Shown in pieces: positions 35,159 through 49,495 of a stretch of DNA of 64,000 nt (positions are counted from its first letter, which is position 1; every line of letters starts with the position of its first letter). The notes beneath the pieces are model-generated. The model ran no database searches. It had not been told where the DNA came from and worked only from the letters and a program-made list of their open reading frames with translations. A program made the translations under genes and the position numbers. Source of the stretch: Thauera sp. GDN1 (GTDB taxonomy: Bacteria > Pseudomonadota > Gammaproteobacteria > Burkholderiales > Rhodocyclaceae); the NCBI RefSeq assembly GCF_029223545.1, contig NZ_CP097870.1, positions 2,418,001 to 2,482,000 of the forward strand, in the 5' to 3' direction.

Positions 35159-35767
35159 TCAGATCCTGTTTGCGTAAAGCGTTGCCTCGATGATGCGGAC
35201 GATCCGGCTGGTCAAAGCCTCCGAATCGAGCCCCGGATTGGTGATGCTGCGAAGAAGGACGCCTCCGAACAACGCCGAGAAGAGCTCCACGATCCCTTCG
35301 ATGATGGACTCATCGTCGATGTAGCCTGATCGCGACCGGATCTCACGTATGGCTGCGGCAAGCCCCTTCCGCCCGACAGCATCCGCCTCTCTCACGATCT
35401 GCGCGACTTTCGGATTCCGCCCGGCCTCCGCAACGATCTCGACCTTCAACGCCGCCGCATAGGGGTCAAGTTGTTTCGTGATGGCTTCGGCAACGTGCGC
35501 TCGCAGTCCACATCGGGTATTGGCAACCTCACGAAGAATCTCGGTCAGTGCAAGCCGATGCTCGAGATCCTGCGCAACGATGGCCCCGATGATTGCATCC
35601 TTGTTCTCGAAGTAATGGTAGATGTGCCCCGGACTCATGCCGGCGGCTTTCGAGATCTGCGAGATGCTGGCACCGTGAAATCCGTGTTCGCAGAAGCAAC
35701 GCGCTGCGGCCGCCAGGATCTGCAGGCGACGCGCATCGCCACGCTTGCAGTCAATGAGCTGTTCCAT
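35159..35767 (-). CDS. TetR/AcrR-family regulator (downstream of ETF-QO)
   Basis: A 202-residue regulator: N-terminal HTH (about 12-58; RRLQILAAAARCFCEHGFHGASISQISKAAGMSPGHIYHYFENKDAI is the classic TetR start) and a helical ligand domain. It is 36 bp downstream of ETF-QO on the same strand, so it is probably the third gene of the SDR-ETF-QO-TetR operon and thus under the dyad at 38396. The ligand may be an acyl-CoA or pathway intermediate; this is inferred. Confidence 0.88.
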   Translation of the reverse strand: MEQLIDCKRGDARRLQILAAAARCFCEHGFHGASISQISKAAGMSPGHIYHYFENKDAIIGAIVAQDLEHRLALTEILREVANTRCGLRAHVAEAITKQLDPYAAALKVEIVAEAGRNPKVAQIVREADAVGRKGLAAAIREIRSRSGYIDDESIIEGIVELFSALFGGVLLRSITNPGLDSEALTSRIVRIIEATLYANRI

Positions 35768-35803: not shown

Positions 35804-37447
35804 CTACATCCCCTGGTAGATCGGTCCTTCGCCGCCCTGCGGCACGACCCAGTTGATGTTCTGGGTCGGGTCCTTGATGTCGCAGGTCTTGCAGTGCACG
35901 CAGTTCTGCGCGTTGATCTGCAGGCGCGGGCCGGCCTCGGCCTGAACGATCTCGTACACCCCGGCCGGGCAGTAGCGCTGCTCGGGGGCGTCGTATTTCG
36001 CCAGGTTGATCGCGATCGGCACCGAGGCGTCTTTCAACTGCAGGTGGCAGGGCTGTTCTTCCTCGTGGTTGGTGTTCGACAGGAACACCGACGACAGCCG
36101 ATCGAAGGTGAGCACGCCGTCGGGCTTGGGGTAGGCGATCTTCGCGCACGCGGCCGCCGGCTTGAGCTTGTCGTGGTCGGCCGTGTTGTGCAGGGTCCAC
36201 GGCACCTTGCCCTTGAACAGCACCTGGTCGATGCCGAACAGCAGCGAACCCAGGACCAGGCCTTTCTTCATGTAGGGCTTGAAGTTGCGCGTCTTGTGCA
36301 GCTCGGCGTGCAGCCAGGAGCACTGGAAGGCAGCGGGATAGGCCTCGAGCGCGTCGCGCTGGCGGTCCTGGGCCAAGGCCTCGAAGGCGGCCTCGGCGGC
36401 GAGCATGCCGGACTTGATCGCGGCGTGGCTGCCCTTGATGCGCGCTGCGTTCAGGAAACCGGCGTCGTCGCCGATCAGCCCGCCGCCCGGGAACACCAGC
36501 TTGGGCAGGCTCTGCAGGCCGCCGGCGGCAATCGCGCGCGCGCCGTACTGCAGGCGCTTGCCGCCTTCCAGGTACTTGCGGATCTCGGGGTGGGTCTTCC
36601 AGCGCTGCATCTCCTCGAACGGCGACAGGTGCGGGTTCTCGTAGTTGAGCCCGACCACGAAGCCGAGCGCGACCAGGTTGTCCTCGAGGTGGTAGAGGAA
36701 GCCGCCGCCATAGGTGCGGTTGTCCATCGGCCAGCCGGCGGTGTGCACGACCAGGCCGGGGCGATGCATCTCGGGCTTGACCTCCCACAGCTCCTTGATG
36801 CCGATGCCGTAGGTCTGGGGGTCGACGCCGTCGCGTAGGTTGAACCTCGCCTCGAGCTGCTTGCCGAGGTGGCCGCGGCAGCCCTCGGCGAACAGCGTGT
36901 ACTTGGCGTGCAGCTCCATGCCGAGCTGGTGATGCGGACCGGGGGTGCCGTCTCGGTTCAGACCCATGTCGCCGGTGGCCACGCCCTTCACCGCGCCGGC
37001 CTCGTCATAGAGGATCTCGGCGCCGGCGAAGCCCGGATAGACCTCGACGCCGGCGACTTCGGCCTGCTCGCCAAGCCACTTCACGACGTTGCCCAGGCGG
37101 ACGATGTAGTTGCCGTGGTTCACGAGGCAGTCGGGCAGCAGGCCGTTGGGGGCCTGGCGGGCGCCGGTCTCGGACAGGAACAGCACCTTGTCCTCGGTGA
37201 CTTCGGTGTTGAGCGGCGCGCCCTGTTCCTTCCAGTTCGGGATCAGCTCGGTGAGCGCCTTGGGGTCCATCACCGCGCCCGACAGGATGTGGGCGCCGAT
37301 CTCGGCCGCCTTCTCGATCAGGCACACCGAGATCTCCTGGCCCTTCCCGGCGGCCAGCTGCTTCAGGCGGATCGCGGCCGACAGCCCCGCGGGGCCGCCG
37401 CCGACGATCAGCACGTCGAATTCCATCGACTCGCGTTCGATGCTCAT
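35804..37447 (-). CDS. Electron transfer flavoprotein:ubiquinone oxidoreductase
   Basis: Membrane-associated FAD and [4Fe-4S] enzyme that passes electrons from ETF to quinone. The 547 residues match the family. The FAD motif DVLIVGGGPAGLSAA is at about 10-24, with GEQ..HLEDNLVALGFVVGLNYENPHLSPFEEMQRWK-type ETF-QO core segments, and the C-terminal cluster ligands in RYCPAGVYE and NCVHCKTCDIKDP. It lies 33 bp after an SDR gene. With the EtfBA pair at 41.5-43.3 kb it provides a respiratory outlet for the acyl-CoA dehydrogenases of the island. Confidence 0.95.
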   Translation of the reverse strand: MSIERESMEFDVLIVGGGPAGLSAAIRLKQLAAGKGQEISVCLIEKAAEIGAHILSGAVMDPKALTELIPNWKEQGAPLNTEVTEDKVLFLSETGARQAPNGLLPDCLVNHGNYIVRLGNVVKWLGEQAEVAGVEVYPGFAGAEILYDEAGAVKGVATGDMGLNRDGTPGPHHQLGMELHAKYTLFAEGCRGHLGKQLEARFNLRDGVDPQTYGIGIKELWEVKPEMHRPGLVVHTAGWPMDNRTYGGGFLYHLEDNLVALGFVVGLNYENPHLSPFEEMQRWKTHPEIRKYLEGGKRLQYGARAIAAGGLQSLPKLVFPGGGLIGDDAGFLNAARIKGSHAAIKSGMLAAEAAFEALAQDRQRDALEAYPAAFQCSWLHAELHKTRNFKPYMKKGLVLGSLLFGIDQVLFKGKVPWTLHNTADHDKLKPAAACAKIAYPKPDGVLTFDRLSSVFLSNTNHEEEQPCHLQLKDASVPIAINLAKYDAPEQRYCPAGVYEIVQAEAGPRLQINAQNCVHCKTCDIKDPTQNINWVVPQGGEGPIYQGM

Positions 37448-37480: not shown

Positions 37481-38335
37481 TCAGACACTGGCCGGGATCG
37501 TCGCACGCCAGTCCGGCACGATGCCTTGCTCGAGGGCGAAAGGCTGAGCCTGGATGGTCCGGCGCTGAAAGGCCGGCGCCTCGGGCGAGGTTGCCAGCCA
37601 GCACAGCACGGCCGCCGGTACCTCCGGCGGGGCCACGCCCTTGCGCATGGCGAGCACGCCCTTCTCGCCAATGGTGGCGCGCAAGGCCTCGGTGGTGACG
37701 ACGCCCGGATTGATGGTGTAGGCAAGGATGCCCTGATCGCCGAACTCCGCCGCCAGCACGCCCGACAGGCGCGACACCGCCGCCTTGCCGGCGCCGTAGG
37801 CGTAGCCCCAGCCGCCCTTGCCCGCCGCGACCGGCGGATCGCTCTCGCCCGCGCCCGAGCTGACGTTGATGACCGTGCCGCCGCCCTGCGCCAGCATCGC
37901 GGGCAGCAGGCACTGCGTCAGCACCACCGGCGCCATCACATAGCCCTGGAAGACGCGCTGGAGGGTATCGATGCCTAGCGACATGAACGGCAGGTTGAGG
38001 TCGCTGCCCTGGTAGATGGCGTTATTGACAAGCACATCGACCCGGCCGAAGCGCGCCAGCACCGCCGCCGCCGCCGCCCGCACCGATTGTTCATCGAGCA
38101 GGTCCATGCGTACGGCGAAGGCCTCGCGGCCCATTTCCCTTATGGCGCCCGCGGTACTGGCTAGGCTCCCGGCCAGGGGCCGCCCGTCGGCATGGGTCAG
38201 GGCATGCGCATGTGATTCGCCCTCTTCCAGCGTCCGCGCGCTGATCGCCACGTCGAAGCCCGCCCGCGCGAAGGCGATCGCCGCTTCACGCCCGATCCCC
38301 CGGCTGGCACCGGTTATGAAGGCCACCTTGTTCAT
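37481..38335 (-). CDS. Short-chain dehydrogenase/reductase (SDR) 1
   Basis: A 284-residue classical SDR: TGASRGIG cofactor motif (residues 9-16), NNA motif (104-106), catalytic S160, Y180 and K184 (YGAGK). The C-terminus is longer than in minimal SDRs. Start at 38335 is supported by GAGAGGGA upstream and by the position of the promoter dyad at 38396-38413, which rules out the in-frame ATG at 38398. The substrate is unknown; the island suggests a hydroxyacyl-CoA or cyclic alcohol/ketone. First gene of the SDR1-ETF-QO-TetR operon. Confidence 0.9.
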   Translation of the reverse strand: MNKVAFITGASRGIGREAAIAFARAGFDVAISARTLEEGESHAHALTHADGRPLAGSLASTAGAIREMGREAFAVRMDLLDEQSVRAAAAAVLARFGRVDVLVNNAIYQGSDLNLPFMSLGIDTLQRVFQGYVMAPVVLTQCLLPAMLAQGGGTVINVSSGAGESDPPVAAGKGGWGYAYGAGKAAVSRLSGVLAAEFGDQGILAYTINPGVVTTEALRATIGEKGVLAMRKGVAPPEVPAAVLCWLATSPEAPAFQRRTIQAQPFALEQGIVPDWRATIPASV

Positions 38336-38369: not shown

Positions 38370-38413
38370 AGTCTAGTGACCGGCTCCTTGCGCTCCATCG
38401 TCGGTTCGGACCA
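38370..38413 (-). promoter_or_regulatory. Shared dyad, site C, with -10 (SDR1 operon)
   Basis: Plus-strand reading CATCGTCGGTTCGGACCA (38396-38413). In the direction of transcription (minus) the -10-like TAGACT lies at 38370-38375, its first base 21 nt beyond the dyad. One base of the left half (G for C) departs from site A. It controls the operon starting at 38335, 60 bp away. Confidence 0.75.
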
Positions 38414-38440
38414 TTAAAAACCGGCCACGGGGGCCGGTCT
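38414..38440 (-). terminator. Terminator of the SDR2 gene
   Basis: Reading the minus strand: ACCGGCC, short loop, GGCCGGT, then TTTTTAA (plus-strand arms 38420-38426 and 38432-38438). It ends right at promoter dyad C, so SDR2 and the SDR1 operon are separate transcripts. Confidence 0.8.
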
Positions 38441-38478
38441 GCGAAACGCGGGCGCCATGCGCACGGTTCAGCGGACGC

Positions 38479-39246
38479 TCAGAAGCGGTCGCTGCGGCTC
38501 ATCGCGTCCATGCCGCCATCGACGAAGACCACCGTGCCGTGCACGAAGCTGGCCTGCTCCGACTGCAGGAAGGACACCACGTTCGCAATCTCGTCAGGGG
38601 CGCTGTTGCGCCCGATCGGCGCGACGAACTTGCGGATCGCCTCGCCATAGCGGGCATCGGCCCGCGAGGCGTCCAGCAGCGGCGTCTCGACCGCACCCGG
38701 CGCGATCACGTTGATGCGGATCCCCTTCGGCCCGAGTTCGACCGCCTTCTTGCGCGCGTACACGGCGACCGCGTACTTGGAGCCGGCGTAAGCGGCCTGC
38801 GGGACGGCCATCGCGTCGGCCTGCGCCAGCGCCCCCGCCTCGTCGCCGGCCAGCATCGCGGCCACCATCGGCAGCTTGTCCATACCGGGGTGCACCGAGG
38901 CGACCGACCCGATCAGCACCACGGACGGCTTGTTCCCTCGCGCCAGCGCGCCCGCCAGGCCGTCCACCAGTTCGGTCATGCCAAAATAATTGACACCGAC
39001 GATCACGCTGCTCGAAGGCGCGGTCGGCCCCAGTCCGGCACAGCAAACCAGTCCATCGAGCACGCCCTCGCACGCCGCGAGTGCGCGCTCGACCGCCGCC
39101 TTGCGACCGGCCGCGGTGGACAGGTCGGCGACGATGTCGGCGTCCTGCCGGTCGATGCCGATGACGCGATGACCCGCGCGTTTCAGTTGCTCGCATACGG
39201 CTGCGCCGATGCCCGAAGCGGAGCCGGTGACGACGGTGACGGTCAT
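38479..39246 (-). CDS. SDR 2, 3-alpha-hydroxysteroid dehydrogenase/carbonyl reductase-like
   Basis: A 255-residue SDR that resembles HsdA of Comamonas testosteroni along its whole length: TGSASGIGAA, DRQDADIVADLSTAAGRK, LDGLVCCAGLGPTAPSS, VGVNYFGMTELVDGL, YGEAIRKFVAPIGR, the ending VDGGMDAMSR. Catalytic S114, Y153 and K157 nearly keep HsdA numbering, and the extra helical segment before the YxxxK (about 123-150) is present. HsdA interconverts 3-alpha-hydroxy and 3-keto steroids with NAD(H). The similarity is recalled, not computed; other carbonyl substrates are possible. Its own promoter and terminator make it monocistronic. Confidence 0.85.
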   Translation of the reverse strand: MTVTVVTGSASGIGAAVCEQLKRAGHRVIGIDRQDADIVADLSTAAGRKAAVERALAACEGVLDGLVCCAGLGPTAPSSSVIVGVNYFGMTELVDGLAGALARGNKPSVVLIGSVASVHPGMDKLPMVAAMLAGDEAGALAQADAMAVPQAAYAGSKYAVAVYARKKAVELGPKGIRINVIAPGAVETPLLDASRADARYGEAIRKFVAPIGRNSAPDEIANVVSFLQSEQASFVHGTVVFVDGGMDAMSRSDRF

Positions 39247-39291
39247 GAAACACTCCTCGATGCCCTAGACGGGCCAGAACGATGATGCGCC

Positions 39292-39338
39292 AGTATCCCG
39301 GCCCCCTGGCGCCGCCCGCATCGTCCGGGCGGACTAAA
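39292..39338 (-). promoter_or_regulatory. Shared dyad, site A, with -10 (SDR2 gene)
   Basis: Plus-strand CATCGTCCGGGCGGACTAAA (39319-39338), containing the perfect inverted repeat GTCCG-GG-CGGAC. Reading the minus strand, GATACT (39292-39297) starts 22 nt past the dyad as -10. The SDR2 start codon is 72 bp away. This is the most symmetrical copy and defines the consensus. Confidence 0.8.
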
Positions 39339-39409
39339 CGCAGCCCCGGCCATTCGTCCTAAAATGCCCGCACCGCCACGCTCACCACGTTTTTCGAGGA
39401 CCACGCGTC

Positions 39410-40300
39410 ATGACTCAGCTGAAGACCCTCATCGTCGCCATGATGCTCGGCGGCACCGTATTGACGAGCCCCCTCCAGGCCGCGGATACCCCTGCGACGG
39501 CGACCTCCGCAGTCACCAAGGCGAGCAGCGAGTTCGCGCGCGCGCAAGCGCTGCTCGACCGCGCCGAAGCCCACCTGCAGGAAAAGGGCGATCAGGCGAT
39601 GGCCAGCTTCAGCCAGGCCGGCGAGTTCGTCGATGGCGAACTTTACGTCTATGTGATCGACACGAAGGGGAATTTTCTCGCCAGCGGCGGCAGCTCGACC
39701 ACGCTGATCGGGCGCAATGTCCTCGACCTCACCGACTCGGAGGGACGCCACTTCATCCGCGAGATCCTCGACGGCGCCAAGGTGAAGCCGAACGGGCGTG
39801 TCGAGTATCGCTGGAACAACCCGATCAGGGGTGGCAACGAACCCAAGATCGCCACCTACCGTAAAGTGGGCGAGCGCATCCTGGTCGTCGGCAACTACGC
39901 CCCCAACGCCAGCTTTGAGCTGGCGAAATCGCTTGTGTGGCGCGCGGCGCACGAGCTGAAGGTCGGCGGCGAGGCAGCGTTTGCCCGCCTGGGCAGCCTG
40001 AATGGCGGCTTTGTTCAAGACGATCTCTACGTGTTCGTGATCGGCGTAAACGATGGGGTCGTGCACGTGCACGGCGGCCAGCCCCGCCAGGTCGGGCGCA
40101 AGGCGGCCGACATCGTGGATGTGAATGGCAAGCGCTTCCTGTTGGAAATGATCGAACTGGCCCGGCAGAAGGGCGAAGGCGAGGTTCGCTACGTATTCCG
40201 CAATCCGCTCACGCTCAAGAACGAGAACAAGCGCAGCTACATCGTGCGCGTGGGCGATTACCTCGTCGGTGCCGGCAGCTACGAAAACGCTGCACGCTGA
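39410..40300 (+). CDS. Periplasmic tandem Cache-domain protein
   Basis: A 296-residue protein with a signal peptide (about 1-25, ending SPLQAA) and two sCache_2-type domains: about 55-165 (ELYVYVIDTKGNFLASGGSS, LIGRNVLDLTDSEGRHFIREI, VEYRWNNP) and about 180-290 (DLYVFVIGVNDGVVHVHGG, VGRKAADIVDVNGKRFLLEM, VRYVFRNP). There is no membrane helix after the signal peptide and no signalling output domain, so it is probably a soluble periplasmic ligand-binding protein. It faces the catabolic genes on the opposite strand; a sensory or ligand-delivery role is inferred. Confidence 0.85.
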   Translation: MTQLKTLIVAMMLGGTVLTSPLQAADTPATATSAVTKASSEFARAQALLDRAEAHLQEKGDQAMASFSQAGEFVDGELYVYVIDTKGNFLASGGSSTTLIGRNVLDLTDSEGRHFIREILDGAKVKPNGRVEYRWNNPIRGGNEPKIATYRKVGERILVVGNYAPNASFELAKSLVWRAAHELKVGGEAAFARLGSLNGGFVQDDLYVFVIGVNDGVVHVHGGQPRQVGRKAADIVDVNGKRFLLEMIELARQKGEGEVRYVFRNPLTLKNENKRSYIVRVGDYLVGAGSYENAAR

Positions 40301-40309
40301 AGCGTGCAG
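40290..40309 (+). terminator. Hairpin over the stop codon of the Cache gene
   Basis: CTGCACGCT (40290-40298), loop GA, AGCGTGCAG (40301-40309): a perfect 9-bp stem that includes the TGA stop. There is no T-run, so termination is uncertain; it lies between convergent genes. Confidence 0.4.
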
Positions 40310-40359
40310 GATACGCGGCCGGAGAGGGTGCGGGCTGCGGCGGCCCCTTCCCTCTCTGG

Positions 40360-41499
40360 TCAGTCGTTCCGGCTCAGCGCCGCGACGCTGTTGAGCATGA
40401 TGCGGACCAGTTCCGTCTGGCGGCGGACCCCGGTCTTGGAGAAGATGGAGCGCAAATGGGCACGCGCGGTGTTGCGCCGGATGTTCAGCGCTTCCGCAGC
40501 TTCTTCCAGAGACAGGCCGTTGGCCAGCTCCATCGCCAGCGCCGTCTCGGCGGGCGTGAGGTTGAAAAGCTGCTTCGCCGCAGCCGTGCTCGCCAGCGAT
40601 TTGCCGGTTGCATCGCGGATGTAGACCACCACCGACGGCTGCCCCTTGCCCTCCGCCCACTCTTGCGAGGGAACGGGCTCGACCACCACGCCGAGGCTCA
40701 CCTGGCCGGATGGCCGCGACACCGACATCGCCGACGCCACCGCCAGCGGATCGCCAGAGTGGCGCGCGAAGGCGCTGCGAATAAGCTGCTGGAGCTCGCG
40801 GTTATCGCTCGGGTAGGACGCTTCCAGCCGCCCGCCCACCAGTTTCAAACCGTCGTTGACCGCGAGCAGCTCGCGCGCGATGAGGTTCTGCTCGAGCACC
40901 TTGCCGTTCTCGTCGAGCACGAGCGTGCCGACCGACAGCCTGCCGATCGCCTGCGAATAAAGGGTTCCGAGCGATTCGCTGCGATCGAGCAGATTGTGGA
41001 TGTGCAGTGCGCGGCGAAGATGTGGCAGCAGCGCCTCGCAGCGCCCCCGATCCAGCGCGTCGAACTTCGGCGCCGCTTCGCTGCGCGTGATGCGGAAGCG
41101 CAGCTTGCCCGAATCGGGGGTCGCGATATCGACGCCCATGACGTGGAACACGTCGACCGGCGCGCACCAGTGCTCGTAATAGGGCATGCGCCGCCACTCG
41201 GACTCGGTCATCAGGTCCTCGACGGTAAACACCTTGTCGACCGGCTGATTGACGAAGGGCGTCATCGAATGCCCGTAAGGCAGGTAGGTGACCTTGTCGC
41301 CGCCTTCCACGCCGACGGCGATCATCATGCCAAGGTTGCTTTCGTCCGGACTGCGCAGGATCAGGGTGACGTAGTTCGCCTGGAACAGGACGCGGAACAT
41401 CTCCAGCGCCTCGCCCCAGCGCCGGCTGTCGAGCGATGCATCGTAAAGCGCCGACACGATGCGATCGTATTCGTCGAGTTCCAGTTCGATCTTGTTCAA
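40360..41499 (-). CDS. LuxR-family transcriptional regulator, likely activator of the island
   Basis: A 379-residue regulator with a C-terminal LuxR/FixJ HTH (about 315-375; LTPAETALAMELANGLSLEEAAEALNIRRNTARAHLRSIFSKTG) and a long N-terminal sensory region with a PAS-like part (about 185-300, GTLVLDENGKVLEQNLIARELL). There is no receiver domain, so it is probably ligand-responsive. Size and layout recall TeiR, the LuxR-type steroid regulator of C. testosteroni. It is the last gene of the SDR3-OYE-MaoC-EtfBA operon, 48 bp after etfA, and so would be under its own dyad (site B). Confidence 0.87.
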   Translation of the reverse strand: MNKIELELDEYDRIVSALYDASLDSRRWGEALEMFRVLFQANYVTLILRSPDESNLGMMIAVGVEGGDKVTYLPYGHSMTPFVNQPVDKVFTVEDLMTESEWRRMPYYEHWCAPVDVFHVMGVDIATPDSGKLRFRITRSEAAPKFDALDRGRCEALLPHLRRALHIHNLLDRSESLGTLYSQAIGRLSVGTLVLDENGKVLEQNLIARELLAVNDGLKLVGGRLEASYPSDNRELQQLIRSAFARHSGDPLAVASAMSVSRPSGQVSLGVVVEPVPSQEWAEGKGQPSVVVYIRDATGKSLASTAAAKQLFNLTPAETALAMELANGLSLEEAAEALNIRRNTARAHLRSIFSKTGVRRQTELVRIMLNSVAALSRND

Positions 41500-41547
41500 A
41501 TCCCTTCCCCTTGAATTTCACACCGGCAGCCCAGACGTCTCGCACCC

Positions 41548-42492
41548 TCAGGTTGCGGCAAGACTCGCCGTCAGCGCCGGTACCGCCTCGAAAAGGTCAG
41601 CCACCAGACCGTAATCGGCCACCTGAAAGATCGGCGCATCGGGATCCTTGTTGATCGCCACGATCACCCTGGAATCCTTCATGCCCGCCAGGTGCTGGAT
41701 GGCGCCGGAAATCCCGACCGCGACATAGAGTCCCGGGGCGACGATCTTTCCGGTCTGGCCCACCTGATAGTCGTTGGGCACGTACCCGGCATCGACCGCC
41801 GCACGCGATGCGCCCAGGGCGGCGCCAAGGCTGTCGGCCAGCGGCTCGAGCACCCGGCGGTAATTGTCGCCGCTGCCCAATCCGCGGCCACCAGATACGA
41901 CGATCGCCGCAGCGCCGAGTTCCGGGCGCTCGGACTTGCTGAGTTCGCGACCGACGACCCGCGACAGGCCCAGATCCGGGCCGGCGGCGATGGTCTCCAC
42001 CGCCGCGCCGCCACCGGCGCCCGCAGCATCGAAGGCCGTCGTACGCACGGTGAGCACGTCGAGTGTCTGGTCCGACTCCACCGCAACCATCACGTTGCCC
42101 GCGTAGATCGGGCGCAGATAGCGCCCGGGCGCCTCGATCGCGACCACGTCCGAAACGGCCGCCACGTCGAGCAGCGCAGCCACGCGGGGGCCGAGATTCT
42201 TGCCGAAACTGGAAGCGCCGGCAAGCACGGCCCGATAGCCGCCCTCGCCTGCCAGCCGCTGCACCAGAATCGCGAGATTCTCGGCCAGCGGCTCGGCGTA
42301 ATGCACGGCATCCACCTTCAGCACGCGAGTCACCCCGCCGACGGCCTGCGCCTGCGCCACGACGGCTTCGCAGCCATGGCCGGCGACCAGCACGTCGATC
42401 TCGCCGCCGAAACGCGCCGCGGCGGTGACCGCATTGAGCGTTGCCGTCGCCAGGCGCTCGTTGTCGTGTTCTGCAATGACCAGTGTCTTCAT
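41548..42492 (-). CDS. etfA: Electron transfer flavoprotein alpha subunit
   Basis: A 314-residue FAD-binding ETF subunit. The N-terminal part begins [20 protein letters not shown]; the C-terminal FAD domain holds [61 protein letters not shown] and [21 protein letters not shown], the family's cofactor-binding signature. It accepts electrons from acyl-CoA dehydrogenases and passes them to ETF-QO. It lies 8 bp after etfB. Confidence 0.96.
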
Positions 42493-42500
42493 CGTACGCC

Positions 42501-43250
42501 TCAGATCACCTTCGCTTCGTTGCGAAGCTTGTTCACCAGCTCGGCCACGTCGGCCACCTTCACCCCTCCCTTGCGCGCGGCCGGCTCGGCATGACGCACA
42601 TGGCGCAGCCGCAGCGCGATGTCGACGCCCGTCTCCGCGGCCGGAAGCACATCCAGCGGCTTCTTCTTCGCCTTCATGATGTTCGGCAGGGTGGCGTAGC
42701 GCGGCTCGTTCAAACGAAGGTCTGCGGTGACCACCGCCGGCAGCTTCAGCTCGACCGTCTCCAGGCCGCCGTCGACCTCGCGTGTCACGGCAGCCACGCC
42801 CTCGCCCACCGCCACCTTGGAGGCGAAGGTCGCCTGCGGCCAGCCCATCAGGGCAGCGAGCATCTGGCCGGTCTGGTTGGCGTCGTCGTCGATCGCCTGC
42901 TTGCCGCAGATCACGATCTGCGGCTGCTCGCGATCGGCGACCGCCTTCAGCAGCTTGGCCACCGCCAGCGGCTGCAGCTCGGCATCCGTCTCGACCAGGA
43001 TGGCGCGGTCTGCGCCCATCGCCAACGCGCTGCGCAGGGTCTCCTGGCAGGCGGTGCTGCCGCAACTCACCGCGACCACCTCGGTGGCCACGCCAGCTTC
43101 CTTGAGGCGCACCGCTTCCTCGACGGCGATCTCGTCGAAGGGGTTGATCGACATCTTCACGCCGGCCAGCTCGACCCCGCTCTGGTCGGACTTGACCCGC
43201 ACCTTCACGTTGTAATCGACGACCCGCTTCACCGGGACAAGAATCTTCAA
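42501..43250 (-). CDS. etfB: Electron transfer flavoprotein beta subunit
   Basis: A 249-residue AMP-binding ETF subunit: [36 protein letters not shown], the [22 protein letters not shown] block and the [22 protein letters not shown] segment, which matches the ETF-beta recognition loop. It is placed between MaoC and etfA in a catabolic operon, so this ETF is dedicated to the pathway rather than a housekeeping copy. Confidence 0.96.
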
Positions 43251-43289
43251 GGCGTTCTCCTTGCAAATTTTCGGAATCTGGACGCTGGC

Positions 43290-43742
43290 TCAGACCGCGA
43301 GCGGCTCGCGGCGCAGCATCACGACATGCGCATCGAAGCTGATCAGCAGCTCATCGCGCTGGTTGAGCAGTTCGAAGCGCGAAACCAGCACGCCGCGCTC
43401 GGGGCGGCTGCCCGGACTGCGCTCGACATGGGTGACGCGGGCGCGCAGCTCGTCGCCCGCGACGCCCGGCCGGTGAAAGCGCAGCTTTTCCCAGCCGCGA
43501 CCGGCGATAGAGGCGGTCTCATCGGTGGGAATGCTGTGGCTCAGGCGGATCGTTACCGAGAGCAAATGCACACCGGCCGCGAACAGCTGGCCGATCGGCG
43601 ATTTCGCCGCTGCGGCTTCGTCCACGTGCGGCGGGAACGGGTCCCACTCGGCAGCAAAGCCCTTGATGTTCTCGGCGGTGAGCAGGTAGCGCTCGGACGA
43701 TTCGCGCGGTTCGTCGAGAATGACGTCTTCCCAGTAGATCAT
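43290..43742 (-). CDS. MaoC-like hot-dog hydratase
   Basis: A 150-residue single hot-dog protein of the MaoC dehydratase type. The hydratase motif D34-P-F-P-P-H39-V-D is present in AAEWDPFPPHVDEAAAAKSP, and the long helix continues IGQLFAAGVHLLS. Such enzymes add water to 2-enoyl-CoA thioesters. The stop is 39 bp before etfB, and the start overlaps the OYE stop by 4 bp. Confidence 0.87.
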   Translation of the reverse strand: MIYWEDVILDEPRESSERYLLTAENIKGFAAEWDPFPPHVDEAAAAKSPIGQLFAAGVHLLSVTIRLSHSIPTDETASIAGRGWEKLRFHRPGVAGDELRARVTHVERSPGSRPERGVLVSRFELLNQRDELLISFDAHVVMLRREPLAV

Positions 43743-44821
43743 GCGCTCACCCCCTCGGCGGTGGGGTAATCGGTGTAGCCCTCGACGCCCGGCGTGTACA
43801 AGGTTTTGCGGTCGAAGCGGGCGAGCGGCAAGCCGTCCCGCAAACGGCGCACCAGATCGGGGTTGCCGATGAAGTCGCGGGCAAAGGACACCGCCGCGCC
43901 CAGACCAGACGCAATCGCGGCATCCGCAGAAACCCCGTCAAAGCTGTCGTTCAGGATCAGTTTGCCGTCGAAGCCATCACGGGCGAGCGCAAACGCATCG
44001 ATCTCCGGCGCCTCGGCACGCATCACGTGCGCGTAGGCCAGGCCCATGTCCTTCACCTGGCGCAGCAACTCGGCGTGGGTGGCGACCGTGTCCGCGTCCT
44101 TGATGTCGTTGTAGCTGTTGCCGACGCGGAAACGCAGGCCGACACGCCCGGCGCCGATCGCAGCGGCCATCGCCTGCAGGCACTCCGCCGCGAAGCGCAC
44201 GCGATTTGCGACGCTGCCGCCATACTCGTCGGTGCGCTGGTTGGTCCCCGAGCACATGAACTGCATCGGCAGGTAGCCGCTGGTGCAGTGCAGCTCGACA
44301 CCGTCGAAGCCGGCCTCGCGGGCCTTGATCGCCGCCTGCGCATGTTCCGCCACCACGGCGCGCACCTCTTCGGTGGAGAGCGCGTGCGGCAGGTCATAGG
44401 GCTGCATGCCGGCGCTGTCGGTGAAGACCTCCCCCGCGGCACGGATCGCCGACGGCGCGACGGTGGCGACCCCCTCGCCCTTGATGTGGTGACTGCCGAT
44501 GCGGCCGGCGTGCATGATCTGCAACACGATGAGCCCGCCGCGCGCATGCACGGCGTCCGTCACCTTGCGCCATCCGGCGACCTGCGCCGCGGTGGCGATG
44601 CCCGGCTGGCGGCAATAGGCCTGGCCGGTGGCGCTCGGCCATGCGCCCTCGGCAACGATCAGGCCGGCCTCGCCGCGCTGAGCGTAGTATTCGACCATCA
44701 GCTCACCGGGCACGCCCTGCGCGTCCGCGCGGTTGCGCGTCATCGGTGCCATCACGATACGGTTGGCGAGTTCGAGCTCGCCCATCCGCACCGGACTGAA
44801 GAGATTCGGAAGTGCTGCCAT
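43739..44821 (-). CDS. Old Yellow Enzyme-family NADH:flavin oxidoreductase
   Basis: A 360-residue FMN TIM barrel of the alkene/2-enoate reductase type: NLFSPVRMGELELANRIVMAPMTRNRA, QIMHAGRIG, TNQRTDEYGGSVANRVRF and the phosphate-binding region near FARDFIGNPDLVRRL. The substrate-carbonyl pair normally H-x-x-N or H-x-x-H reads H178-C-T-S181 (VELHCTSGYLPMQF), an unusual change. It probably reduces an activated C=C bond or a ring enone. The ATG at 44821 is 8 bp after the SDR3 stop; the frame continues upstream over SDR3. Confidence 0.9.
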   Translation of the reverse strand: MAALPNLFSPVRMGELELANRIVMAPMTRNRADAQGVPGELMVEYYAQRGEAGLIVAEGAWPSATGQAYCRQPGIATAAQVAGWRKVTDAVHARGGLIVLQIMHAGRIGSHHIKGEGVATVAPSAIRAAGEVFTDSAGMQPYDLPHALSTEEVRAVVAEHAQAAIKAREAGFDGVELHCTSGYLPMQFMCSGTNQRTDEYGGSVANRVRFAAECLQAMAAAIGAGRVGLRFRVGNSYNDIKDADTVATHAELLRQVKDMGLAYAHVMRAEAPEIDAFALARDGFDGKLILNDSFDGVSADAAIASGLGAAVSFARDFIGNPDLVRRLRDGLPLARFDRKTLYTPGVEGYTDYPTAEGVSA

Positions 44822-44829
44822 GACTGCGC

Positions 44830-45597
44830 TCACAGCGCGGTGACCAGCACCGAAGAGCGGCCACCGTCGACCGGCAGGCTGGCCCCGGTGATGTAGGACG
44901 CCTCGTCGCTGGCGAGGAACAGGATCGCGTTGGCGAGCTCTTCCGGCTGGCCCACGCGGCCCATCGGGATCAGCTTCTCGGTGTTCTTGCGCGAAGCCTC
45001 GTCGGCCAGCATGCCGGCGGTCGCCGGGGTTTCCACCACGGCCGGGATCACCACATTGACGCGGATGCCGTGCGGCGCGCCTTCGGCCGCCGCGGCGCGC
45101 GAGAAGTTGTCGATGGCCGCCTTGGCCGCCGAATAGCCCGCCATCCACGGCGTGCCGAGCTGGCCGCAGATCGAGGACACATTGACGATCGCGCCGCCCT
45201 TGCCCTTCATCAGCCGCATCGCGGCACGCGTGCCCCAGAAGGTGCCATCCACCGAGGTCGCGAAGTTGGCATGCCAGTCGGCGGTGCTCATCTCCTCGAT
45301 GCTGCCCCAGGTATAGGCCATGGCGTTGTTCACCAGCACGTCCAGCCGGCCGTGGCGCTGGGACGCCGCCTCGAGCGCGGCGGTGAAGCCCGCCTCGTCG
45401 CTGACGTCGGCCACTGCCGCCTCGGCCTTGCCGCCAGCGGCGACGATGCCAGCGACAACCTCGTCCAGCGGTTCGCGCCGCCGACCGCACACCACCACGG
45501 TCGCGCCTTCCTGCGCCAGACGCTGCGCAGTCGCTGCGCCAATCCCGCTGCCCCCGCCCGTCACGAACGCCACCTTGCCCTGCATACGACCTGCCAT
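44830..45597 (-). CDS. Short-chain dehydrogenase/reductase (SDR) 3
   Basis: A 255-residue classical SDR: TGGGSGIG (13-20), NNA (90-92), catalytic S142, Y155 and K159 (YSAAK), and C-terminal ASYITGASLPVDGG typical of the FabG-like subclass. It is the first gene of the operon SDR3-OYE-MaoC-EtfB-EtfA-LuxR. The substrate is unknown; FabG-like members often oxidise hydroxyacyl-CoA or cyclic alcohols. Confidence 0.92.
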   Translation of the reverse strand: MAGRMQGKVAFVTGGGSGIGAATAQRLAQEGATVVVCGRRREPLDEVVAGIVAAGGKAEAAVADVSDEAGFTAALEAASQRHGRLDVLVNNAMAYTWGSIEEMSTADWHANFATSVDGTFWGTRAAMRLMKGKGGAIVNVSSICGQLGTPWMAGYSAAKAAIDNFSRAAAAEGAPHGIRVNVVIPAVVETPATAGMLADEASRKNTEKLIPMGRVGQPEELANAILFLASDEASYITGASLPVDGGRSSVLVTAL

Positions 45598-45657
45598 GTC
45601 CCGTCTCCTCGTGGCTAGCGCCGCGCCGTGCGCGGCCCATGTGTTGTGATTGCACGA

Positions 45658-45694
45658 CCCGCCCGATCGGCGTGCCAGCCCGCCCGATACGGCG
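45658..45694 (-). repeat. Direct repeat in the leader of the SDR3 operon
   Basis: CCCGCCCGATCGGCG (45658-45672) and CCCGCCCGATACGGCG (45679-45694), 21 bp apart, about two helical turns. In the direction of transcription they lie just downstream of the -10 (45708-45713), where a repressor could act. They stand in the 287-bp gene-free stretch 45598-45884, which also holds dyad B. Confidence 0.5.
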
Positions 45695-45707
45695 AGCTTG
45701 TGAAGCT

Positions 45708-45753
45708 AGGGTAGAAAAACAGCCCCGGGGCGCCATCGTCCGATGGGACTAAA
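45708..45753 (-). promoter_or_regulatory. Shared dyad, site B, with -10 (SDR3-OYE-MaoC-EtfBA-LuxR operon)
   Basis: Plus-strand CATCGTCCGATGGGACTAAA (45734-45753). Reading the minus strand, TACCCT (45708-45713) begins 21 nt past the dyad. The leader to the SDR3 start is 136 bp, longer than at the other sites, and contains the direct repeat at 45658-45694. Confidence 0.78.
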
Positions 45754-45884
45754 GAGTGGCAATGGACGCGCCCCGCGGGCACAGGGGCGGGCAGCGCAAA
45801 CGACAGCGAGGGGCAACGGGCGAATTCGCCCCCCCTCGAAAAATGATCCTGGCCACCTGCCTGCCCGGGCACGCCGGGCCCCGC

Positions 45885-46928
45885 TCACCCCGGGAAGCGC
45901 ACCCTGACGCGTTCGGTGGTGGGCAGCGCCTGGCAGCTCAGCGTCCAGCGCTTGGCGAGATCCTTGGCGTCGAGCACCTCGTTGTGACGAAGATGCACCT
46001 CACCTTCGACCACCTGGCACATGCACGACGCGCACATGCCGGCCTGGCATGAATGCGGCGCGTTGATGCCGGCCTTGAGCGCAGCATCGAGCAGGGTCTC
46101 GGTGCCGGCCACCTCAAGCGTGTGCACCTCGCCGTCGAGCTCGATCTCCACCCTGGCGCGCTCGACCGTCGCCGCTGGCGCAGGAGCGGCAGCGTTGATG
46201 GCGGCGACGTCCTCCTCGTCCGGCAGCGACACGAAACGCTCGACGTGAACGTGCTCGCCCGCCATGCCGGCCTTGTCAAGCGCCGACACCATGGCGTCCA
46301 TGAACAGGCCCGGGCCGCAGATGAAGGCCTGCGCCTGCGCCCAAGGGCGGGCAAGTTCCGCGAGCTGCGCCACCGAGGGCACGCCTTGCACCGAATCCAG
46401 CCAGTGGATGATCTGCAGCCGGGCCGGATGCGCGGCGGCGAGCGCGTTCAGCTCGTCGCGGAAGATGACCGAACGCTCGTCGCGGTTGGCGTACAGCAGG
46501 CAGATGCGACCCTGGCCGTGCGCCAGCGCCGAACGCAGGATCGAGAACACGGGGGTGATGCCGCTGCCACCGGCGCACAGCAGGAACTCACCCTGCAGCG
46601 AGGCCGGCGTGAACACCCCCGCCGGCGCCATGACCTCGAGCGTGTCGCCCGGGCGCACACGGTCGCACACCCAGTTCGAGCCACGGCCGTCCTTCACGCG
46701 CTTGACCGTCACCCTAAGGTGCGCGTCGAGCGTCGGCGCGCTCGACATCGAATAGCATCGGGGCAGATGACGCCCCAGCACCGGCAAGCGCAGGGTCAGG
46801 AACTGGCCGGATCGATACTTGAAGGTCTCGGCCAGCTCGGGCGGCACCTCGAACACGACCGACTTAGCGTCGTGCGTTTCCTCGGTCACCGCCCTCACCT
46901 TGAGGGCGTGGTAGCGCTGGGCTGTCAT
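45885..46928 (-). CDS. KshB-like ferredoxin reductase (FAD, NAD, 2Fe-2S)
   Basis: A 347-residue electron-transfer component: FAD motif RCYSMSS (57-63), NAD motif GGSGITP (120-126), CGPGLFM near 204-210 and a C-terminal plant-type ferredoxin with C294, C299, C302 and C332 (CX4CX2CX29C). Blocks such as FKYRSGQFLTLRLP, DGRGSNWVCD, LYANRDERSVIF and IIHWLDSVQGVPS strongly recall KshB, the reductase of 3-ketosteroid 9-alpha-hydroxylase; phenylacetyl-CoA oxygenase (PaaE)-type reductases are the wider family. It is 31 bp downstream of the flavin hydroxylase gene and is likely co-transcribed with it. Confidence 0.88.
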   Translation of the reverse strand: MTAQRYHALKVRAVTEETHDAKSVVFEVPPELAETFKYRSGQFLTLRLPVLGRHLPRCYSMSSAPTLDAHLRVTVKRVKDGRGSNWVCDRVRPGDTLEVMAPAGVFTPASLQGEFLLCAGGSGITPVFSILRSALAHGQGRICLLYANRDERSVIFRDELNALAAAHPARLQIIHWLDSVQGVPSVAQLAELARPWAQAQAFICGPGLFMDAMVSALDKAGMAGEHVHVERFVSLPDEEDVAAINAAAPAPAATVERARVEIELDGEVHTLEVAGTETLLDAALKAGINAPHSCQAGMCASCMCQVVEGEVHLRHNEVLDAKDLAKRWTLSCQALPTTERVRVRFPG

Positions 46929-46959
46929 CTCGCGTCGTTCTCCAGTGGCAGCCGGTCGA

Positions 46960-48183
46960 TCAGATGTACGGATCGGCGTTGGGCAGGCCCAGCATCACCG
47001 CACCGTGCGCGCGCGCATACGTGTCGGTGTTGTTGGCGATGTGACCGCGCGCCTGGTGGATGTCGCGGAACACGCGTTCGATCGGGTTGCTCTTGTACGT
47101 GCCGGACGCAGCGCAGGCCCGCATCAGCTCGCTCGCCGCGGTCGCGCACTGCTTGGGCACCTGCGAGGCCTGGGCGCGCTGCATCAGGCGCTCCTCCACC
47201 GGCATGCGCTCGCCGGTCTTGGCGCACTCGACGATGCGGGCGTAGTTGCGGAACAGCACCAGCTTGAGCTGGTCGGTGGTCATCATCGCCTCGGACACCG
47301 TCTGCTGGGCGTTGACGTCCTCGGCCGTCTTCGCGCCGTGCTTGCCGACGTGCGCCGCCGCGCGTTCGCGGAAGTGGGCGATCGCGCCGTCGAGCGCGCC
47401 GATGCAGGCCGACGACACCGCGCGCTGGAAGACCTGGGTGAAGGGAATCTTGTAGACCCAGCCCGGATTGGTCTGACGTCCGGGGCAGCCGGCGTCGCTA
47501 TGGTCGTTGGTGCGGTGCGTGCGGTGCTCGGGGACGAAACAGCCATCGACCACGATGTCGTGGCTGCCGGTGGCGCGCAGGCCGAGCACGTCCCAGTTCT
47601 TCTCGACGCGGAAGTCCGACTTCGGCAGCAGGAAGGTGGTGTGCTCCATCTGACCCGAACCGTCCTTCTTCGGAAGCAGGCCGCCGAGGAAGATCCAGTC
47701 GCAGTGCTCGACACCGCTCGAGAAACCCCAGCGCCCGGAGAATCGGTAGCCGCCCTCGACCGGCTCGGCCTTGCCGGTGGGCATGTAGGTCGAGGCGATC
47801 AGCACGCCGGTGTCCTTGGCCCAAACGTCCTGTTGCGCCTGCTCGGGGAACAGCGGGAGCTGCCAGTTATGGACGCCGATCACGCCATAGATCCAGGCGG
47901 TCGACATGCAGCCCTCGGCAAGCGCCATCTGCACCCGGTAGAACACCCGCGGGTCGAGCTCGTAGCCGCCGAAGCGCTTGGGTTGCAGCACGCGGAACAG
48001 GCCCGCCTCCTTCATTTCCTGCACCGTCTCGACCGGCACCATGCCCGCGGCCTCGGCAGCGCGAGCACGCTCGGCGAGTCGCGGCGCCATCGCCCTGGCC
48101 CGCGCCACCAGATCTACCGCCTCCGGCGTCATGTAATCTTCGGCCAGAATGCCGAGAACCTGATCCTTGTCCATCGCGCCCAT
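46960..48183 (-). CDS. Acyl-CoA-dehydrogenase-fold flavin hydroxylase (HsaA/TesA2-like)
   Basis: A 407-residue protein of the acyl-CoA dehydrogenase type 2 / group D flavin monooxygenase family. AGLFRVLQPKRFGGYELDP, GRWGFSSGVEHCDWIFLGGL, NWDVLGLRATGSHDIVVDGCFVPEHRT and the end HIANNTDTYARAHGAVMLG follow the pattern of HsaA/TesA2, which hydroxylate a phenolic seco-steroid with reduced flavin. A p-hydroxyphenylacetate hydroxylase-like or desulfurisation-type activity is an alternative. The start at 48183 has GGAGG 8 nt upstream; ATGs at 48258 and 48189 are less likely because the first would lie only 16 bp from dyad D. Confidence 0.85.
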   Translation of the reverse strand: MGAMDKDQVLGILAEDYMTPEAVDLVARARAMAPRLAERARAAEAAGMVPVETVQEMKEAGLFRVLQPKRFGGYELDPRVFYRVQMALAEGCMSTAWIYGVIGVHNWQLPLFPEQAQQDVWAKDTGVLIASTYMPTGKAEPVEGGYRFSGRWGFSSGVEHCDWIFLGGLLPKKDGSGQMEHTTFLLPKSDFRVEKNWDVLGLRATGSHDIVVDGCFVPEHRTHRTNDHSDAGCPGRQTNPGWVYKIPFTQVFQRAVSSACIGALDGAIAHFRERAAAHVGKHGAKTAEDVNAQQTVSEAMMTTDQLKLVLFRNYARIVECAKTGERMPVEERLMQRAQASQVPKQCATAASELMRACAASGTYKSNPIERVFRDIHQARGHIANNTDTYARAHGAVMLGLPNADPYI

Positions 48184-48249
48184 CTCCATGTCCTCCGTGA
48201 TCGCCAACCTAGGCGTTTTTCGGGTGATATCCCTACTGCGATGAGCGAA

Positions 48250-48292
48250 ATGTTCCATACGACAACCCGACCATCATCGTCTGAACGGACTA
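48250..48292 (-). promoter_or_regulatory. Shared dyad, site D, with weak -10 (flavin hydroxylase operon)
   Basis: Plus-strand CATCGTCTGAACGGACTA (48275-48292). Reading the minus strand, GAACAT (48250-48255) starts 20 nt past the dyad; TATGGA (48254-48259) is an alternative -10. The hydroxylase start codon is 91 bp away. It lies in the 322-bp divergent stretch 48184-48505, which also holds site E and no gene. Confidence 0.72.
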
Positions 48293-48403
48293 CCGTAAAT
48301 GGCTGACCCATAAAGACTCTTTCCCTTCAGGCACAAGGGCCTGAGGGCATCCCGGGCAATGCGCACCCGGAACCGTCTCGCCAGCCGGGGCGCATCCGGG
48401 CCG

Positions 48404-48446
48404 TAACCCTTTTGGACGATGCCCCCGAACGCCACGCGCCAATAAT
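48404..48446 (+). promoter_or_regulatory. Degenerate shared dyad, site E, with -10 (YCF48-RND operon)
   Basis: Plus-strand TAACCCTTTTGGACGATG (48404-48421). The right half GGACGATG is a full match to the reverse-oriented consensus and the left half keeps TA..CC. AATAAT (48441-48446) begins 20 nt past it as -10, and the YCF48 start codon is 84 bp from the site. Orientation and spacing match sites A, C and D. Confidence 0.5.
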
Positions 48447-48505: not shown

Positions 48506-49495
48506 ATGCTCGCCCCCGTAGGCATGGCCATGGCATTGATTGTCACAGCGGCCAGCATCTATTCGTTCTCACCCAGGCACGTGCCGCCGCTGCAGGAAAC
48601 GCGCATCCCCGTTGACCGCATGCAGCTCACCACCATCGAGCGCAGCAAGGCGGGACTCGTCATCGCCGGTGAGCTCGGCTCGATCCTGGTTTCCGCAGAC
48701 GAAGGCCAGAGCTGGAAGCCGGCCACCATCTCCCACGACCGCCAGGCGCTGATCACCCGCATCGTGTTCGCCGACCCGGCGCGCGGGCTGGCATTGGGCC
48801 ACGAGGGCTGGATCCTGCGTACCGAGGATGGCGGGCTGACCTGGAAGGAGGTGAACTTCGACGAGTCCAACGGCGAGCCGCTGATGTCCGCACGCCAGCT
48901 GCCCTCCGGCGACTGGCTGGCCGTCGGCGCCTTCGGGCGCGTCCTGCGCTCGACCGACGACGGCCGGAGCTGGCAGGCCGACAGCCTGCCCGGCCTGACC
49001 GACTGGCACCTCAACGACATCGCCTCCTCCGCCGACGGGCAGCAATGGATGATCGTCGGCGAAGCCGGCACCGCGCTGTCGTCGTCGGACGGCGGCCAGA
49101 GCTGGCAGGCCATCGAGCCGTTCTACAACGGCTCGCTCTATGGCGCGGCCCACCTCGGCGGCGACCGCTGGGTGGCCTACGGCATGCGCGGCAACGTCTT
49201 CTTCAGCGCCGACCGTGGCGCATCCTGGCAGCAGGCCAAAGTCCCCGCGCCGATCTCCATCTACGGCCACGCCGTGCTGCCGGACGGCGAGCTGCTGCTG
49301 GTCGGCCAGGGCGGCATCGTGCTGTCGAGCCGGGACGGCGGCACGAACCTGAACATCGTGCGCCGCGAGGGCCGCGCCAGCCTGACCGACATCGTCGTCA
49401 CCGGCGATGGCCGCTGGATGCTGTCCAGCGACGGCGGCCTGCAGGTCCGCACCCCCGCATCCGCCAACCAGACCCAGAACGACGGAGCCGCCTGA
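48506..49495 (+). CDS. YCF48-type beta-propeller protein
   Basis: A 329-residue protein with an N-terminal hydrophobic anchor or signal (MLAPVGMAMALIVTAASIY) and repeated propeller motifs of the YCF48/BNR type (VSADEGQSWKPA, RTEDGGLTWKEV, RSTDDGRSWQAD, SSSDGGQSWQAI, FSADRGASWQQA). Homologues next to RND/MMPL genes are common in hydrocarbon- and steroid-degrading proteobacteria; a periplasmic accessory role in transport is inferred. AAGGAG lies 6 nt upstream; the stop overlaps the RND start (TGATG). Confidence 0.88.
   Translation: MLAPVGMAMALIVTAASIYSFSPRHVPPLQETRIPVDRMQLTTIERSKAGLVIAGELGSILVSADEGQSWKPATISHDRQALITRIVFADPARGLALGHEGWILRTEDGGLTWKEVNFDESNGEPLMSARQLPSGDWLAVGAFGRVLRSTDDGRSWQADSLPGLTDWHLNDIASSADGQQWMIVGEAGTALSSSDGGQSWQAIEPFYNGSLYGAAHLGGDRWVAYGMRGNVFFSADRGASWQQAKVPAPISIYGHAVLPDGELLLVGQGGIVLSSRDGGTNLNIVRREGRASLTDIVVTGDGRWMLSSDGGLQVRTPASANQTQNDGAA

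Follow-up and report, generated by a model that had tools for sequence, protein, structure and literature searches.

TeiR/TesR of Comamonas testosteroni has been reported as a LuxR-type positive regulator of steroid degradation, and TesR as being needed for the tesB, tesA1 and tesA2 clusters (PMC6895838). The literature also names several repressors. For P. stutzeri Chol1, deletion of a TeiR-like gene is stated to delay growth on cholate, with reference to unpublished data, in a 2021 review that describes regulation in bile-acid degraders as largely unknown (PMC8399759), and a 2019 paper repeats the report that tesR-like genes are confined to C. testosteroni (PMC6895838). No operator of TeiR/TesR was found in the literature searched, a scope outside which the text of the 2004 TeiR paper lay, so an earlier operator is possible. 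Here a 20-bp dyad (approximately YKTAGTCYGNNNGGACGATG) is described in a stretch of 64,000 nucleotides from Thauera sp. GDN1, called the window (C1:2418001-2482000 of the single-contig 3.87-Mb genome); we hold with good confidence that this dyad is the operator of a LuxR-type activator of the TeiR/TesR family, tying a steroid-degradation regulon together.

Two further kinds of system were used for comparison. TraR and the tra boxes of Agrobacterium likewise combine a LuxR-type helix-turn-helix (HTH) with an 18-20 bp dyad about 45 nt upstream overlapping the -35 region, and a single tra box is reported to serve divergent operons (PMC3907764); the arrangement of dyad and -10 hexamer found here is that of class II-type TraR promoters (PMC3907764), whereas the box sequence and the target genes differ and the LuxR protein of the window has no acyl-homoserine-lactone domain match. 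KstR/KstR2 and EdcR also act at palindromic operators ahead of steroid catabolic operons, but they are TetR repressors, and the EdcR operator is TnnCnnTACnAnTnGTAnnGnnA (PMC8700777).

Dyad sites and promoter geometry

The sites of the window and the -10-like hexamers assigned to them are as follows.

38396..38415, minus strand: site C dyad, facing SDR1, the ETF-ubiquinone oxidoreductase (ETF-QO) and a TetR gene; one mismatch, conserved in 4 relatives
38370..38375, minus strand: -10-like hexamer TAGACT of site C, at offset 21-26; kept in 4 relatives, with spacing varying by one base
39319..39338, minus strand: site A dyad, facing SDR2 and possibly, in the other direction, the Cache-domain gene; exact match, conserved
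39292..39297, minus strand: -10-like hexamer GATACT of site A, by offset and alignment with relatives
39360..39365, plus strand: -10-like TAAAAT at 22-27 nt from dyad A, assigned to the divergent Cache-domain gene; relatives have similar bases at this spacing
45734..45753, minus strand: site B dyad, facing a six-gene operon ending in luxR; exact match, conserved
45708..45713, minus strand: -10-like hexamer TACCCT of site B, by offset and alignment with relatives
48275..48294, minus strand: site D dyad, facing the HsaA-like / ferredoxin-reductase pair; exact match, conserved
48250..48255, minus strand: -10-like hexamer GAACAT of site D, by offset
48402..48421, plus strand: site E, a weaker dyad, facing the YCF48-like and MMPL-transporter genes; matrix score 14.0, conserved
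48441..48446, plus strand: -10-like hexamer AATAAT of site E, by offset and relatives

An earlier note on this DNA had listed four dyads, all of which were recovered: exact matches to CATCGTCYGNNSGGACYA lie at 39319 (A), 45734 (B) and 48275 (D), and the site at 38396 (C, CATCGTCGG...) carries one mismatch. The identity of 13 of 18 positions across sites A-D and the perfect repeat in site A (GTCCG-GG-CGGAC) were found as described, and one half of the box is GGACGATG. The common orientation given for all four sites (TTTAGTCCG...) applies literally to A only, since B reads TTTAGTCCC, C AATGGTCCG and D GGTAGTCCG. The hexamers GATACT (A), TACCCT (B), TAGACT (C) and GAACAT (D) start 22, 21, 21 and 20 nt beyond the 20-mer. 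Of the five promoters announced in the title of that note, we take the weaker dyad E to be the probable fifth, as the end point 48421 given there is the end of E; the regulon itself proved far larger than five promoters.

Spacing was assessed in the surrounding catabolic island and in a wider set of 225 sites, of which 163 were kept once sites whose flanks were over 60% alike had been dropped. Base 22 past the 20-mer was A in 16 of 21 island site-directions and base 26 was T in 14 of 21 (two weak sites included), and among the 163 less related sites the corresponding figures were 70% and 66%. Because of this pattern the -10 hexamer was placed at about 21-26 past the 20-mer, so that the dyad would span about -52 to -33 with its centre at -42.5, a numbering that assumes the hexamer at the usual -12 to -7. 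The class II placement proposed earlier is thus supported by the base spacing: by the hexamer-based numbering the putative operator lies near -42 at a fixed distance from the -10, with a GC-rich spacing lacking a clear -35 between them.

The half-site far from the promoter read AGTC in 117 of the 163 sites, CGTC in 24 and neither in 22. A22 together with T26 was seen in 69% of the AGTC group on the near side and 7% on the far side (controls 3%), versus 42% and 46%, respectively, in the CGTC group (controls 2.5%). The far-side difference gave a Fisher p of about 1e-5 (11/24 vs 8/117), which serves as a guide only, the counts being rebuilt from percentages and the sequences related. Asymmetric dyads therefore appear to be mostly one-directional, while symmetric dyads often seem to have a -10 on both sides; divergent enoyl-CoA hydratase and SDR genes flank both island site 175521 and the Vibrio site L026:22161. 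Site A departs from the pattern, having a GACTA-like far half and yet a conserved -10-like sequence that also faces the Cache gene.

Genome-wide occurrence and extent of the regulon

Within the window, the box allowing up to 3 mismatches gave 11 matches against a shuffle mean of 5.36 (standard deviation 2.40), and 1 of 100 shuffles reached 11. This excess is modest, and the strength of the evidence for the box is in the genome-wide and comparative tests. Across the whole 3.87-Mb genome, CATCGTCNGNNNGGACNA gave 8 matches, 6 of them inside the island (control 0), and all 10 matches to TTTAGTCCGNNCGGACGATG with up to 3 mismatches fell between 2457319 and 2604149, a stretch of 147 kb (reversed-pattern control 0). 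The looser pattern TMGTCYNNNNNGACGATG gave 18 matches (control 0), of which 14 lay in the 147-kb stretch, one at 2274792 and the last three at other places. The genome-wide search that the earlier note had proposed thus found the matches clustered and not scattered, with 25 of 26 listed site-to-gene directions in the island being intergenic. The remaining site, at 182851, overlaps the start of a predicted open reading frame (ORF), in which the best family match does not begin before residue 70.

For the extent of the regulon, a matrix built from ten sites was run over 202 kb of the island. The best scores in three 202-kb shuffles were 12.6, 14.8 and 13.3, and scores of at least 16 were therefore counted as solid. 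Operons were inferred after a simple gene call with gaps up to 120 bp, and weak matches at island positions 68236, 76677 and 192365 were left out of the site count. On this basis 18 site-directions head inferred operons totalling 64 genes, among them those of C and E, which are weak by the matrix yet conserved. The first genes include those for an HsaC-like extradiol dioxygenase, an HsaB-like flavin reductase, a ChsH2-type protein, an HsaA-like protein with its reductase, DUF1329, an enoyl-CoA hydratase, SDRs and MFS transporters. The NCBIfam HsaB and HsaC models matched below their curated cut-offs, NCBIfam left the SDR and transporter genes without a decisive name, and the gene at island 181083 resembles 3-ketosteroid dehydrogenase as judged by eye only. 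We take the island gene set to be a 9,10-seco steroid pathway. The clustering, the conservation reported below and the kinds of target gene support one regulon, as the earlier note had claimed in calling it undescribed, a word that does not extend to the regulator, whose family (TeiR/TesR) is already known. That the box and the regulon are real is virtually certain.

As a separate observation, the box at C1:2274792 (L110:8792) has flanks like those of the box at 2533170 ahead of the HsaC-like operon, with no HsaC-like ORF following it, and looks like a displaced copy.

Conservation in relatives

Relatives were scanned using the LuxR alignment, and the best 80 of 420 were kept; many are Pseudomonas, and the loci are hence not independent. 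At threshold 16 these 80 LuxR-bearing loci contained 182 distinct sites, compared with 2 for the reversed matrix and 0, 1, 4, 2, 5 and 0 for six column-permuted matrices. A site was present in 69 of the 80 loci. The remaining 11 are all Pseudomonas, and when re-read at threshold 9 ten of them showed low-scoring variant boxes and one (L101, a 5-kb contig) none. Reversed-matrix controls reached similar scores in several of the variant-box loci, so the support for the variants is their shared position upstream of the YCF48-like gene in 9 loci. Boxes stood beside TeiR-type genes in Rhodocyclaceae-type bacteria, Comamonas, Burkholderia/Cupriavidus, Pseudomonas, Marinobacterium, Halomonas and Vibrio, and in Sphingobium by a single site.

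The genes behind the boxes were compared by searching 320 bp upstream of tblastn matches at threshold 13 in either orientation (400 bp and threshold 10 for the YCF48-like and DUF1329 genes). A box was found upstream of 49 of 50 matches of the HsaA-like gene, 54 of 65 of SDR2, 44 of 59 of SDR3 and 12 of 12 of the Cache gene (controls 0), and of 62 of 65 matches of the YCF48-like gene (control 0); in two of these (L031, L046) the only box is dyad D read in reverse. None was seen upstream of 67 MMPL matches (320 bp, threshold 13). The motif search of related genomes suggested in the earlier note accordingly returned sites upstream of orthologous genes in Comamonas, Vibrio and Pseudomonas. In footprint alignments of 9, 10, 5 and 11 sequences for A, B, C and D, the mean majority-base frequency was 0.91-0.96 in the 20-mer versus 0.48-0.64 in flanks and spacer, and that of the -10 hexamer was 0.91 (A), 0.88 (B), 0.60 (C) and 0.76 (D), the low ungapped figure for C arising because its spacing varies by one base.

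Co-occurrence of box and regulator was followed with exact matches. At least two were found in 4 of 101 genomes of the family and 2 of 349 of the order, each with a LuxR match of E < 1e-80; the reversed pattern gave 1 match and 5 matches over the whole family and order sets, respectively.

The LuxR regulator

40360..41499, minus strand: LuxR-type regulator of the TeiR/TesR family, 379 aa; GerE domain, 49% identical to TeiR, placed by tree

The protein shares 49% identity over 369 residues with C. testosteroni TeiR (Q6URL0), with a nearly identical HTH. The likeness runs over the full length, the gene keeps company with HsaA-, HsaB-, HsaC- and ChsH2-like genes in the same island, and the kinds of target gene are those of TeiR/TesR, so that both kinship and steroid-gene neighbourhood place it in that family. 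In a tree of 60 rows the window LuxR and TeiR fell into one clade, which comprises 48 rows (support 100/98). Another 10 rows form a second group (88/89), made up of a paralogue from the same genome and of Burkholderia, Cupriavidus and other proteins, and the box was found with both groups. The Sphingobium protein and a third LuxR of the island lay outside both groups on long branches; the latter is a strongly diverged LuxR-type protein with a GerE domain at island 85308-86453 (L020:3308-4453).

Genome G191, whose LuxR is 97% identical to TeiR, has boxes ahead of genes for a TesB-like extradiol dioxygenase, an HsaA/TesA2-like protein, an SDR, a thiolase-like protein and DUF1329 (names by family or resemblance), in line with the reported need for TesR at the tesB, tesA1 and tesA2 clusters (PMC6895838).

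The predicted structure consists of two alpha/beta parts and a C-terminal HTH (mean predicted local distance difference test score 77.7, predicted template modelling score 0.49). A Foldseek search with the model gave GAF-containing proteins, phytochromes and the PAS-HTH protein VqmA, with template modelling scores of 0.22-0.38 among those named, which is a lead, not proof, for a GAF-PAS nature of the N-terminal part. Pfam gave GerE only, plus an HTH_30 match below the cut-off, a result compatible with kinase activity and a polar membrane location.

Together, the kinship with TeiR, the co-occurrence and the conservation of the box support the naming of this protein as ligand in the earlier note, in the sense that a TeiR-family LuxR very likely binds the box, and the window's own LuxR is probably the main activator. 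The box is most likely the binding site of this known regulator family, for which the literature searched yielded no described site.

Points against and alternative explanations

Several results weigh against this assignment. A box was rare upstream of SDR1 (14 of 72 matches) and EtfB (4 of 29; controls 0 for both) and was seen upstream of 0 of 13 DUF1329 matches (400 bp, threshold 10). It stood directly upstream of the LuxR gene (320 bp) in 1 of 83 matches, so that the self-regulation foreseen in the earlier note would hold only by way of the whole SDR3-to-LuxR operon headed by box B. Single exact matches without a LuxR match of E < 1e-80 were counted in 8 of 94 genomes of the family and 8 of 345 of the order, which is near chance in the order and somewhat above chance in the family. 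Conversely, G378 has a LuxR (E 4.8e-103) without an exact match, with matrix sites scoring 27.7 and 19.2 nearby, and G060 and G083 have weaker LuxR matches and no exact match. TeiR itself has been described as a polar membrane kinase (PMC6678751), whereas the window protein has an HTH alone in Pfam.

A further such point is the second TeiR-family LuxR of the same genome (C1:2675989-2677107, L111), which belongs to the second group of the tree (clade II). It might be the main binder, or both proteins might use the sites, jointly or each its own part. In genomes G027 and G087 the only LuxR match (E at most 1e-30) is of clade II, and each has 4 exact box matches; boxes lie near Burkholderia and Cupriavidus clade II genes, and the SDR adjoining the paralogue has boxes upstream. 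We nevertheless think this doubtful, since the operon of the window LuxR is headed by a box, the protein groups with TeiR in the tree and shares 49% identity with it, as against 37% for the paralogue, and the two recognition helices differ (NTARCQLRAIFAKTGV in the paralogue vs NTARAHLRSIFSKTGV in the window LuxR).

It is improbable that the box is correctly identified but LuxR acts as a repressor, blocking the -35 region until released by a steroid: the dyad does cover that region, and C. testosteroni is reported to have a LuxR-type protein that represses a hydroxysteroid dehydrogenase gene (PMC8700777), but activation agrees with the fixed distance from dyad to -10 and with a GC-rich spacing in which no clear -35 is seen, and reports describe both TeiR and TesR as acting positively. 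A TetR regulator of the island as ligand is very improbable, for although TetR proteins are reported to govern actinobacterial and estrogen steroid genes (PMC8700777) and one TetR gene lies inside box-headed operon C, the two TetR proteins of the window were found in 1 and 0 of 84 LuxR-bearing loci (tblastn, E 1e-20), on which ground the box was rejected as their operator, and in the Vibrio stretch LuxR is the sole gene annotated as a transcriptional regulator apart from two antitoxins.

Three other explanations were rejected: a chance origin of the box, by the genome-wide clustering with control 0 and by the 182 sites in LuxR loci against scrambled matrices; a mobile or repeated element, by conservation limited to the 20-mer and, less strictly, the -10; and a quorum-sensing (acyl-homoserine-lactone) LuxR, by the lack of a Pfam match to an autoinducer-binding domain.

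Proposed mechanism

With the TeiR-family LuxR as activator, a LuxR dimer, presumably activated when its N-terminal part takes up a steroid or catabolite, would bind the dyad with its centre near -42.5, in the place of a -35 box, and would recruit RNA polymerase to the -10 hexamer 21-26 nt past the 20-mer. A GACGA half-site would face the promoter; GACTA on the far side would make transcription mostly one-way, and GACGA on both sides would allow one dyad to serve two divergent promoters. With luxR last in an operon headed by its own box, positive feedback may result.

A broader reading, which we consider evenly poised as a whole, joins four elements. The box would be a general proteobacterial steroid operator older than the split of the two TeiR-type LuxR clades; TeiR would be a soluble ligand-sensing class II activator and not part of a membrane kinase cascade; direction would be set by the far half-site, mostly one-way with GACTA and two-way with GACGA; and the regulon of this genome would even take in F420 cofactor genes behind a strong box.

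Proteobacteria that degrade steroids clear water and soil of hormones and bile salts. With a box that can be searched for, entire regulons, pathway genes still lacking an assignment and the direction of promoters can be predicted across many genera; the box also makes the mode of action of TeiR/TesR directly testable and offers parts for steroid biosensors.

Genes behind the sites and minor observations

35159..35767, minus strand: TetR regulator, last gene of operon C (Pfam)
35804..37447, minus strand: ETF-QO (Pfam)
37481..38335, minus strand: SDR1, first gene of operon C (Pfam; gene start)
38479..39246, minus strand: SDR2 (Pfam; box upstream of matches as above)
41548..45597, minus strand: rest of operon B, EtfA, EtfB, MaoC, OYE-like and SDR3; Pfam identifies MaoC and SDR, EtfB is named from an annotated Vibrio gene that it matches at 64%, and OYE and EtfA are labelled by sequence resemblance only
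45885..46928, minus strand: ferredoxin-NAD(P)-reductase-like protein, KshB-like in the earlier note (Pfam Fer2, NAD_binding_1, FAD_binding_6)
46960..48183, minus strand: HsaA-like flavin monooxygenase with acyl-CoA dehydrogenase fold (Pfam Acyl-CoA_dh_2)
48506..49495, plus strand: YCF48/BNR-like protein (Pfam)
49495..51948, plus strand: MMPL-family transporter with a sterol-sensing-domain match (Pfam)

The MMPL-family protein behind box E is a candidate steroid transporter. The Cache-domain gene (window 39410-40300), divergent from SDR2 and with its conserved -10-like sequence 22-27 nt from dyad A, is perhaps also a member of the regulon. Elsewhere in the genome, a near-symmetric strong box (score 31.9) precedes F420 genes at G000:C1:2561954-2564465 (L023:1954-4465), namely an F420 reductase (npdG model above cut-off), an F420 gamma-glutamyl-ligase and a CofD-type gene, and the same locus holds a luciferase-like gene (L023:17932-18960). 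F420 cofactor genes are unexpected in a steroid regulon of this group.

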